IMG/VR virus record: IMGVR_UViG_3300005288_000097
Span: 1 to 38,819 of that record
Origin: a virus
Reading direction: 5' to 3' (one strand)
Length of the DNA: 38,819 nucleotides
The position numbers and the translations under genes are program-made. Below, in pieces: positions 6,403-31,765 of the stretch (positions are counted from its first letter, which is position 1; every line of letters starts with the position of its first letter). The notes beneath the pieces are model-generated. The model was not told the DNA's origin, ran no database searches, and saw only the letters and a list, made by a program, of their open reading frames with translations.

Positions 6403-7020
6403 ATGACTCAGATTAGTATCACTCGGGCCTTGGCTCAAGTTAAATCGTTGAACGACCGTATCCAACGCGGCTCCAACGCAAACTTCATCACCACTCTTGT
6501 GGGTGGTAAGCATGGTTCTGGTGTGAGCGAAGCGGAAGCTATCGTAACCCTGAAAGCCAACTTGCAATCGGTACAAGGTCTGATCGCTCAGCGTACAGCT
6601 CTGAAATCGGCTATCGTCAAAAGCAACTCTGTTGCCACTGTCGTAATCAACGATGTCACCATGACTGTCGCTGAAGCCATCGAACGTAAGGGTTCCATTC
6701 AGTTGGAACAAGTGCTGCTCCAAAACCTGCGACAGCAACTGGCTCAAGCAACTCAGACTGTTGAGCGTACCAACGTTCAAGTGAACCAACGTCTGGATCA
6801 GTTGATTCAAACTACTGTCGGCAAAGACCGCAAGGTTGATGAAGCAGAAGTAGCGGCAATTGCTAATCCATTCTTGAAGTCCAACGAAGCCAAGCTTCTG
6901 GACGCAAACGGTCTACAAGTTGTCATTGACAAAATGCAAGCGAACATTGAAGGCTTCCTTCTGGAAGTTGACTACGCGCTGTCTGAAGTCAATGCCACCA
7001 CCAAAATCGAAGTAGCGTAA
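6403..7020 (+). CDS. Conserved phage protein, helical / coiled-coil
   Basis: A 205-residue, largely helical protein. The segments ITRALAQVKSLNDRI (5-19), AIVKSNSVATVVINDVTMTV (about 70-89) followed by AEAIERKGSIQLE, and a long heptad-like helix (LLQNLRQQLAQATQTVERTN) match a protein type seen in many phages, often left as hypothetical. The SN-x-x-T-x-V pattern followed by T-V-x-E-A-I-E-R-K is its signature. It has its own promoter and ribosome site and is followed by about 330 nt without a gene, so it may be abundant or regulated with the RNA downstream. Function unknown. Confidence 0.7.
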   Translation: MTQISITRALAQVKSLNDRIQRGSNANFITTLVGGKHGSGVSEAEAIVTLKANLQSVQGLIAQRTALKSAIVKSNSVATVVINDVTMTVAEAIERKGSIQLEQVLLQNLRQQLAQATQTVERTNVQVNQRLDQLIQTTVGKDRKVDEAEVAAIANPFLKSNEAKLLDANGLQVVIDKMQANIEGFLLEVDYALSEVNATTKIEVA

Positions 7021-7036
7021 GCTGCTTCATTCTGTA

Positions 7037-7350
7037 GCGATGAGTTGTCTAAATTCGGCTGGCCTTTTCCCCTGTGGCCTAAACAGGGGAGCCAATCGCG
7101 GAGATTAAATTCTATTTTAAGAATCTATAGCTGGTTCGAACCCAGCATAAACTCATTGATCACGATCAAAGTTTATAGCTCAGAGATTAAGGCTTAAGGC
7201 TCAACAATGAACCTTTTAAACACGTAACGACAAAAGCCTAAAGATTTTCTAAATCTTGGATTATAGGTTGTCAGGTTATCATTGCCTGACTGTAGTGGTC
7301 CTAGCCGACCAACCCTGATGACGCCCCAAGCTGTCGTCTACAGAAGCATT
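7037..7350 (+). ncRNA. Structured untranslated RNA region, tRNA-like T-arm inside
   Basis: There is no credible gene in 7021-7460. The RNA can form many helices. CCCCTGT/ACAGGGG (7069-7075 with 7083-7089) has loop bases GGCC (7076-7079) able to pair with GGCC 7061-7064, an H-type pseudoknot, all closed by GGCT/AGCC. GCTGG-TTCGAAC-CCAGC (7130-7146) is a perfect tRNA T-arm. ATAAACT/AGTTTAT (7147-7153 with 7170-7176) has TTGATC/GATCAA inside. AAGATTT/AAATCTT is at 7241-7257. GGTTG/CAACC (7266-7270 with 7310-7314) encloses GTCAGG/CCTGAC and TGGTC/GACCA in a three-way junction. ATGAGTT 7040-7046 can alternatively pair with AACTCAT 7150-7156. A terminator follows. This is either a phage ncRNA or a processed 3' UTR; family unknown. 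Confidence 0.6.
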
Positions 7351-7351
7351 T

Positions 7352-7374
7352 AGCCCGCCTTGAGCGGGCTTTTT
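7352..7374 (+). terminator. Intrinsic terminator after the structured RNA
   Basis: AGCCCGC (7352-7358) and GCGGGCT (7364-7370) with a CTTGA loop, followed by TTTT. A canonical terminator ending the transcript that starts at the 6342 promoter. Confidence 0.9.
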
Positions 7375-7401
7375 GCTGCCTGAAATTCAATGAAATAGTA
7401 G

Positions 7402-7429
7402 TTGACACGCACTGGAAACGGTGTAGAAT
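7402..7429 (+). promoter_or_regulatory. Sigma70-type promoter of the replication block
   Basis: TTGACA 7402-7407, TAGAAT 7424-7429, spacer 16 bp. The leader carries AATCAACCAAACACGGAGAAA before the first gene. Only a 4 bp ACAC/GTGT repeat is present here. Confidence 0.85.
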
Positions 7430-30702: not shown

Positions 30703-31308
30703 ATGTCTTTTAAAGTTGGTGACAAGGTGCGTATCAATCATAACGCTTACAACGTAGCTGATCATCGTTATGGTATGGTTGCAACTGTCAGTCGTATTGA
30801 TGAACAATCCAAGCTTCTGCCAGTCCGTGTTGAGTATGATAGCTTCCAATTCAACTGGACTAATTACGAAAGCCTGACACTGGTAGAAGCTGCTCCATCG
30901 CAACATGCAGCAATCGGCAAAGACATCCTTGACAAGATGGTGACTCTCAAAGAGTCCATCATTGCTCGTGATAACGCTGTCAAGCTGGTTATTGAACAGA
31001 CTGAAACACTAGATGCATTGCTGGCTCAGTACGGCCTGAAACGTGGTGAGGAAATCTCTCCAATTCCAGTACGTGTTACTGCGACGACCCGCACAGTCTT
31101 GGACTTCATTACTGAAGGTAACATCCGAGAAGGTCAGAAGTTTAAGTGTATCTCCGAAGCAGTAGACTTCTTTACCAAAGATGAAGTCTACACTGTAGTG
31201 GAGTTGGACCTTCGTGATCGTGAGCAACCTGTTGCATTCAAAGATGACGATGGTGATGTAATGTTCCCTGATCGCCCTGAGCTGGCCTACTTCGTCCGTG
31301 TAATCTAA
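30703..31308 (+). CDS. Hypothetical protein with KOW/SH3-like N-terminus
   Basis: A 201-residue protein; ATG 30703 follows AAGGAGAACACA. MSFKVGDKVRINHNAYNVAD then HRYGMVATVSRIDEQSKLLP and PVRVEYDSFQFNWTNYESL form an SH3-like barrel. A helix (about 75-115) follows, then a second beta unit (GQKFKCISEAVDFFTKDEVY ... DGDVMFPDRPELAYFVRVI). The two outer beta units may be a duplication. No enzymatic motif. Confidence 0.65.
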   Translation: MSFKVGDKVRINHNAYNVADHRYGMVATVSRIDEQSKLLPVRVEYDSFQFNWTNYESLTLVEAAPSQHAAIGKDILDKMVTLKESIIARDNAVKLVIEQTETLDALLAQYGLKRGEEISPIPVRVTATTRTVLDFITEGNIREGQKFKCISEAVDFFTKDEVYTVVELDLRDREQPVAFKDDDGDVMFPDRPELAYFVRVI

Positions 31309-31318
31309 GGAGCAACAC

Positions 31319-31519
31319 ATGCTGAATTACTCTCAACGTGAAAACGACATCCTTGTACGCTTCAAGAAACGCCCACTAGGCACAATTGAACGCACTGGAA
31401 GACTCTGGGCTTACCTCCCGAGAGCCTGTGATAGAGCCATCCGCTGGGAGTTTGGAAGCTTACAGGAAGCCAAAAACTTCCTTGAAGAACCGTCAAGAAT
31501 TACCTTGACGCGATACTGA
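31319..31519 (+). CDS. Hypothetical protein
   Basis: A 66-residue basic protein (MLNYSQRENDILVRFKKRPL...) with AAGGAG 7 nt before the ATG. Beta strand then helix (GSLQEAKNFLEEPS). No motif. The stop lies inside the spacer of the next promoter. Confidence 0.6.
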   Translation: MLNYSQRENDILVRFKKRPLGTIERTGRLWAYLPRACDRAIRWEFGSLQEAKNFLEEPSRITLTRY

Positions 31520-31533
31520 TAACAAGGTAGAAT
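31505..31533 (+). promoter_or_regulatory. Sigma70-type promoter with inverted repeat
   Basis: TTGACG 31505-31510, TAGAAT 31528-31533, spacer 17 bp. TACCTTG (31501-31507) and CAAGGTA (31523-31529) are a perfect 7 bp inverted repeat touching both boxes. Confidence 0.82.
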
Positions 31534-31585
31534 GTAATAAGGACGACCCCCGTTCGTAAGAACAACCCTCATAGGAGACATGGAT

Positions 31586-31765
31586 ATGTCAGATGAAAAT
31601 AAGATCGCCATCTATGAGAAAAAGACTATGCGAGAAGTAGAGTTGGAACTATCCATCTTCGTGAGAGATAGAAAATCCTGCTCCGTACCTCGTAGAATCC
31701 ACTGGCTTGAGGAACACATTGAGTTCCTTGAAAGAGTTCTCGTAGAGAAACGAACTGCTGTATGA
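31586..31765 (+). CDS. Hypothetical helical protein
   Basis: A 59-residue protein; ATG 31586 is 8 nt after AGGAG, whereas ATG 31580 is only 2 nt away. MSDENKIAIYEKKTMREVEL ... RIHWLEEHIEFLERVLVEKR is a charged two-helix protein. No motif. Followed by a terminator. Confidence 0.58.
   Translation: MSDENKIAIYEKKTMREVELELSIFVRDRKSCSVPRRIHWLEEHIEFLERVLVEKRTAV

Follow-up and report, generated by a model that had tools for sequence, protein, structure and literature searches.

The locus

The window, i.e. the whole stretch of DNA that was analysed, is a virus record of 38,819 bases and is possibly a fragment. All the features described here lie on its plus strand. The gene P0001 (positions 6403-7020) codes for a protein of 205 amino acids, assigned to PHROG 1491 by profile and to a DIP1984/DUF6847-like fold by predicted structure. 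It is followed by a region (7021-7375) with no relevant plus-strand ORF, flanked by the stop codon of P0001 and by a promoter-like sequence at about 7402-7429. This region contains a structured RNA of about 315 bases (7030-7345, delimited by covariation on alignments), which starts 9 nt past the stop codon (median distance in the family, 16 nt). An intrinsic terminator evident from the sequence (GCCCGC..GCGGGC-UUUUU, 7353-7374) comes next; terminator-like hairpins follow the RNA in 41 of 89 family members, compared with 5 at a control position.

The folding energy of 7021-7375 is -110.9 kcal/mol, while dinucleotide shuffles of the same region gave -86.9 +/- 4.7 kcal/mol (z -5.1), and none of 100 shuffles was as stable. 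An initial annotation of this DNA had described a gene-free region holding a highly structured RNA and followed by a terminator, and all of this was confirmed. It had also referred to a compact phage, which is doubtful, considering that the 38.8-kb record is possibly a fragment and that the named Pseudomonas phage relatives measure about 90-175 kb.

The promoter-like sequence directly 3' of the terminator is of the sigma-70 type (UUGACA-16-UAGAAU, 7402-7429) and would serve the next gene cluster. The same type of promoter was also seen past the RNA in two other loci, L007 and L009.

The initial annotation could not match the RNA to any family. A covariance search against Rfam 15 (including GOLLD, ROOL and tmRNA), which it had proposed, gave no match in the window at curated scores and, at a permissive threshold, only weak matches, mostly on the terminator; in 30 relatives no Rfam 15 family matched the RNA either. 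ARAGORN found no tRNA or tmRNA genes in the window. The best reading is that the RNA is a new class of structured RNA, outside Rfam 15. It should be noted that, while no description of the gene-RNA pair was found in the open-access literature, most subscription journals lie outside that coverage, and the priority of the pair is therefore uncertain.

A closed and pseudoknotted fold

One test of the fold used 19 RNAs of Pseudomonas phages, aligned without regard to structure. A helix set composed of P1, an H-type pseudoknot, PX and a local hairpin that was later dropped showed 94.7% of cells paired and a covariation score of 0.62 (at most 0.15 when the strands were slid), and both-sided changes affected 22 of its pairs.

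P1 pairs its 5' strand (7030-7041) with 7333-7336 and 7338-7345, leaving U7337 bulged in the 3' strand (7333-7345), which is supported by alignment covariation. In the 19 RNAs, 97.8% of P1 cells are paired and 8 of 12 pairs are changed on both sides; in distant members, the figure is 10 of 10 pairs. The 3' strand begins at the G of a CUG, and GAAA is usually found behind the 5' strand. The longest contiguous pairing was 11.8 bp when the two strands came from the same locus, and 7.0 bp when they came from different loci. P1 closes the RNA.

Inside P1 are two long-range helices, namely P2, formed by GUUGUC (7044-7049) and GAUGAC (7317-7322), and P3, formed by UCGGCU (7055-7060) and AGCCGA (7303-7308), the latter with four to six pair types per position. 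Both were recovered independently by RNAalifold from the 19-RNA alignment, with compensatory changes in each. When strands from 51 distant RNAs were scored against partners from their own and from other loci, P2 gave 14.8 vs 9.3 and P3 gave 14.1 vs 11.1, which makes P3 the weaker case. P2 replaces the rejected local hairpin GAGUU/AAUUC (7042-7046/7052-7056), which is only 83% paired and fails in several relatives.

The fourth helix, PX, joins CUUGG (7255-7259, behind AAAU) to CCAAG (7326-7330, followed by CUG), and is likewise supported by covariation. Its arms occur in 28 combinations in 84 loci, e.g. CCUGG/CCAGG, CCAAG/CUUGG, CCAUG/CAUGG, CUAGG/CCUAG and CCCAG/CUGGG. Because the 5' arm lies inside P3 and the 3' arm outside P2, PX forms a pseudoknot with P2/P3. 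In a 36-row composite of distant members, P1 and PX together were 98.5% paired, with a covariation score of 1.06 (slid control, at best 45% and 0.20); the paired percentage is inflated, because most rows had been picked for a P1 without gaps and the PX arms were located by complementarity, but neither choice accounts for the variety of pair types. When the window RNA was folded alone, the minimum-free-energy structure contained P1 and P2, paired the bases of the repeats described below, and missed PX.

The initial annotation had proposed an H-type pseudoknot between two GGCC segments, and this turned out to be a family-wide feature. In the window (7061-7089), GGCC at 7061-7064 pairs with the GGCC at 7076-7079 in the loop of the stem 7069-7074/7084-7089. 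Among the 19 relatives, all 10 pairs of the pseudoknot are changed on both sides, including the four pairs of the loop helix, in which 86.8% of cells pair. Matching pseudoknots were found in 67 of 89 diverse RNAs, compared with 13% of shuffles, and the loop pairs include GGCC/GGCC, ACCC/GGGU, CAGC/GCUG, AGGC/GCCU and ACCG/CGGU.

The claim of a functional structured RNA, which had been made to hinge in part on covariation in relatives, is strongly supported, since such covariation was found. P1, the long-range helices P2 and P3, the crossing PX, the heptad array and the position behind a PHROG 1491 gene were absent from the initial annotation.

The heptad array

Upstream of PX lies an array of 11 heptads (7165-7243), taken as single-stranded, which was recognised by lag-7 autocorrelation and by a trained model. 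Its units are AUCAAAG UUUAUAG CUCAGAG AUUAAGG CUUAAGG CUCAACA AUGAACC u UUUAAAC a CGUAACG ACAAAAG CCUAAAG. Across the family, the autocorrelation of this tract is 0.415, 0.383 and 0.357 at lags 7, 14 and 21, as opposed to about 0.285 in shuffled sequences, and at lag 7 it reaches a z of 35 over 89 RNAs. The trained model gave the consensus NUYAAAG and counted 11.1 +/- 1.4 heptads in each RNA, with 11 as the mode, vs 2.4 in shuffles. In several Gram-positive members, the array is split into 7+4 heptads around a pyrimidine-rich spacer.

Among the T5-like phages, nucleotide diversity is 0.023 in the heptad tract and 0.147 at the third codon positions of the gene, and the tract was the less diverse of the two in 6 of 6 groups tested. 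This indicates that the tract is under selection and is not a hypervariable guide. Its constraint is nevertheless looser than that of the 3' domain.

The nearest known system in plan is VIPR, which consists of a RAMP (RRM-fold) protein, Vipr, and of a vrRNA with GGY/NN pentanucleotide repeats (YNNGG) whose NN positions are hypervariable, and which performs RNA-guided binding of double-stranded DNA (PMC13142463, preprint 2026). Both systems combine a small phage protein with an adjacent RNA, in which about ten tandem short repeats are joined to a pseudoknotted structured part. The repeat, however, is 7 nt long (NUYAAAG) instead of 5 (YNNGG), and the RNA is about 300 nt long and closed at both ends, unlike vrRNA. 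VIPR systems, which occur mostly in phages, pair a small protein with an adjacent RNA that has 9-16 short repeats and a structured pseudoknotted part (PMC13142463). The likeness in plan could suggest that the variable heptad positions are a noncontiguous code targeting a nucleic acid. We regard such a guide function as very improbable, because the heptads are too conserved, whereas the code positions of VIPR are hypervariable; in addition, only one RNA per locus was seen among the loci that were read.

Linkage to the PHROG 1491 gene

By DNA similarity, the Pseudomonas phages Astolliot and Milchi match the upstream gene and parts of the RNA region. The distribution of the gene is far wider: tblastn located PHROG 1491 genes in 708 phage records, among them T5-like phages of Salmonella and Escherichia and phages of Vibrio, Klebsiella, Erwinia and Lactococcus, as well as Bacillus phage G and Brevibacillus phage Jenst. 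In the annotated regions that were opened, a gap of a few hundred bases lies behind the gene, either without a CDS or with a small doubtful one.

Loci were collected through the protein gene, using profile searches (the best 80 of 154 viral loci, further ones with T5-like queries, and, from bacterial genomes, 54 loci that belong mostly to Bacillus, Lysinibacillus, Brevibacillus, Paenibacillus and Domibacillus); about 200 of them were inspected for the RNA as such. A strict RNA signature was defined as AAA[UC], 5 nt, a spacer, 5 complementary nt and CUG, with the arms 40-55 nt apart and no more than 550 nt from the stop codon. It was present in 84 members of a non-redundant set of 98 loci and in 1.4% of dinucleotide shuffles; the reverse complements (0/98), the region farther downstream (0/92) and the upstream region (2/96) were essentially devoid of it. 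The signature is present in the window as well, where 71 nt separate the arm starts because of a local insertion.

The linkage spans T5-like phages, phages of Pseudomonas, Vibrio and Lactococcus, Bacillus phage G, and loci in the prophages or chromosomes of Bacilli. The neighbouring genes differ from locus to locus, and may be tRNA, nucleotide-metabolism, lysis or replication genes, or bacterial chromosomal genes. In Bacillus pumilus, the pair is located behind homocysteine S-methyltransferase and amino acid permease genes, an ordinary chromosomal context, and the protein is present in 14 of 44 genomes of the genus, those of the pumilus group and relatives. In Lysinibacillus, the pair adjoins a uracil methyltransferase-like gene, and in Domibacillus it lies beside an integrase gene. 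The protein is also encoded on large plasmid records of Clostridioides difficile, Deinococcus and Bacillus, where the gene alone was examined.

Two gene-RNA pairs were observed on one 349-kb contig (L067 and L070), and two in one Paenibacillus genome (L117 and L122).

These data bear on three alternative views of the RNA. Since it always lies directly downstream of the gene, on the same strand and with a median distance of 16 nt to the stop codon, it might be a cis-acting element of the 3' UTR, with no separate life, regulating its own upstream gene by acting on translation or stability, or through feedback from the bound protein. A closed and pseudoknotted RNA of about 300 nt with about 11 repeats exceeds, however, what known feedback elements need, and the fold is kept despite completely different gene neighbourhoods; we therefore consider this explanation unlikely.

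Short tandem motifs on a stable scaffold are also what would be expected of a sponge, and the heptads could sequester a host or phage factor, possibly the upstream protein, in the way in which CsrB sequesters CsrA. CsrB and RsmZ are such sponges, and TRAP binds eleven repeats of its target RNA as an 11-mer ring; these RNAs, too, carry tandem short protein-binding motifs on one molecule. In the present RNA, the motif and its spacing are different, the protein is unrelated, and gene and RNA are linked. A sponge appears rather improbable, considering that one repeat type occurs across Gram-positive and Gram-negative hosts and that the constant neighbour is a phage protein.

Finally, the location in phages, the complex fold and the presence of some relatives among tRNA genes recall GOLLD and ROOL, with which the initial annotation had compared the RNA and which are large phage-associated structured RNAs without a known task. 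The comparison finds no support: there is no sequence or covariance match, and the heptad RNA has a constant partner gene. An ornate particle made of RNA only, next to a gene found there by chance, is hardly credible in view of the missing Rfam match, of the strict association with a single protein family across remote lineages, and of a centre that is a repeat tract and not a compact fold.

The partner protein

P0001 matches PHROG 1491 over residues 1-204 (E 2.8e-67). AlphaFold2, supplied with 79 relatives, predicted a structure with pLDDT 95.2, in which a small sheet connects long helices at one end. The best Foldseek match of this model in the PDB is 3kdq, an uncharacterised Corynebacterium diphtheriae protein (E 8e-3). 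VIA-align gave a Z of 11.4 to 3kdq and 7.7 to the next match, although for a helical protein a Z of 11 does not by itself decide the matter. Comparison of the P0001 profile with cellular DUF6847 proteins by hhalign yielded a full-length match (P 2e-4, 149 columns, probability 47%), which aligns both Asn-containing motifs. P0001 itself matched neither NF038048 nor PF20935, and only 4 and 6 of the 79 relatives matched the DIP1984/DUF6847 models, weakly (best E 0.003-0.005) and below the curated cut-offs. Taken together, the predicted fold and the profiles suggest, without settling the point, that PHROG 1491 is remotely related to the DIP1984 superfamily. We know of no role for DIP1984/DUF6847 proteins, although the structure of 3kdq has been solved.

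The predicted resemblance to DIP1984 is a further point against a guide function, as the protein of VIPR is a RAMP: in the P0001 model, helices are accompanied by a small sheet, the structure that matches it best is 3kdq, and no RAMP is present among the listed fold matches, an absence which is not proof.

Conserved basic residues of P0001 are K14, R19, R64, K68, R95 and K96 (R19 and R95 being mostly K/R). The most conserved residues, including K14, R64, K68, N75, K96 and N197, are located in the strands or within a few helix turns of them, according to the secondary-structure map, so that the sheet end of the model may be the RNA-binding face. As a whole, P0001 is not a basic protein (pI 6.6), and domain and profile searches recognised no RNA-binding domain in it. 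A possible internal repeat was also noticed, consisting of a helix running into S-N-A-x-T-x-V/I and then a strand, at residues 74-80 and 194-202, at both ends of the bundle.

PHROG 1491 proteins are commonly recorded under the name 'tail fiber protein'. The top fold matches include no convincing tail fibre, and the name finds no support in the fold, in the neighbouring genes or in the chromosomal copies.

A second RNA-like block behind cellular DUF6847 genes

DUF6847 genes scoring above the cut-off were found in 17 of 299 Bacillota genomes. A few bases behind them lies another conserved block, distinct from the heptad RNA and about 200 nt long (loci L204-L215; e.g. L204:1930-2150 and L215:1942-2190), which typically starts with GGUAGC..GAGUAC and ends with CUACC..GUACUG...GUGAGGGUGGG-AAGGGG. 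Rfam 15 gave no match at its place, and no heptads were found near these genes or in the block. A putative helix in it has modest support from the comparison of own with other pairing (20.4 vs 14.3), and RNAalifold returned only 8 pairs because of the poor alignment. The block looks like a second protein-linked RNA class.

The two systems share the fold, a full-length profile similarity (PF20935, NF038048, PDB 3kdq) and the order of a gene followed by a conserved RNA or RNA-like block. They differ in that PHROG 1491 proteins are longer than DUF6847 proteins (205 vs about 152 amino acids) and score below the curated cut-offs, and in that heptads are present only beside PHROG 1491. If the cellular block is real, the pairing of a protein with a downstream RNA would be a property of the DIP1984 superfamily. 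One could go further and envisage an ancient general class, in which DIP1984-superfamily proteins of phages and bacteria each stand beside a dedicated structured RNA that sets the size of a multi-subunit particle, the roughly 11 phage heptads counting as many protomers; we put this forward as a tentative idea, with the odds somewhat against it.

A putative ribonucleoprotein

We think it somewhat probable that the RNA belongs to a new class and makes up a ribonucleoprotein together with the protein encoded upstream, several copies of which (most simply about 11) would sit on the heptads as an oligomer of fixed size. This view is favoured by the linkage of the RNA signature to the gene, at a short distance and across very different phages and Bacilli, the covariation, the near-constant number of about 11 heptads and their slow evolution, the conserved basic residues of the protein and the existence of the cellular block. 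Against it are the protein, which is not basic overall and shows no recognised RNA-binding domain, the fact that genes may be adjacent without any contact between their products, and the lack of heptads in the cellular block.

In such a ribonucleoprotein, one transcript would supply one RNA and many copies of the protein, which would suit the stoichiometry. P1, P2, P3 and the crossing PX would fold into a pseudoknotted core joining both ends of the RNA, decorated on its 5' side by the H-type pseudoknot and by a variable arm, and the heptad array would stay single-stranded. It would be bound by copies of the PHROG 1491 protein, most simply with one protomer per heptad, which would then assemble into the oligomer; this ratio is just the simplest reading of the count of about 11. 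As to the nature of the particle, our first guess would be a protein assembly scaffolded by the RNA, ahead of a guide or a simple regulator.

An undescribed protein-RNA pair appears to be present in hundreds of sequenced phages (708 records with the gene, T5-like phages included) and in some Bacilli. Its RNA would represent a new class of large RNAs, viral as well as bacterial, for which the protein partner is defined. The pair offers a first clue to the function of the uncharacterised DIP1984/DUF6847 family and, as it is carried by T5-like phages, it is accessible to experiment in Escherichia coli.

Lineage-specific parts and neighbouring RNAs

Other elements pointed out by the initial annotation either belong to one lineage or lack conservation. 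Its three-way junction (7266-7314) consists of a 23-nt insertion (7269-7291, with the stem 7271-7275/7285-7289) and of a hairpin that competes with the conserved P3. The insertion is present only in the window and in a near-identical copy, L004, and all the other alignment rows show a 23-column gap. The two helices described as mutually exclusive (7147-7153/7170-7176, and 7040-7046 with the region of 7151) occur in neither of the closest relatives, L005 and L009; the former would bury heptad units.

The T-arm, GCUGG-UUCGAAC-CCAGC (7130-7146), is indeed present and perfect, in the variable arm of the RNA, but it is shared only with the nearest clade. As a family-wide feature it was rejected: T-arms were found in 10 of 98 loci, two of these being chance matches in repeats, and were no commoner than in control regions holding tRNA genes. 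They are therefore read as tolerance of the variable arm for such modules, and perhaps more.

The skipping-rope RNA (RF02924) was seen near the gene-RNA pair in three unrelated loci, beside the RNA in L030 (3125-3202) and L117 (4019-4147) and upstream of the gene in L033 (373-451). It is a separate element of 80 positions and does not overlap with the heptad RNA. In the T5-like phage DT57C, a sequence annotated as 'RNAX, stable RNA with unknown functions' (30992-31627; L027:5069-5624) lies about 1.5 kb past the RNA, and Rfam finds only a tRNA there, at its 5' part.

The variable arm holds a tRNA-Gln in L140 (3707-3783) and a tRNA-like element in L077 (3713-3787), and permuted tRNA-like modules, with the T-arm before the D-arm, were read by eye in L035, L095 and L143. 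These modules recall the tRNA mimic that YrlA Y RNAs carry.
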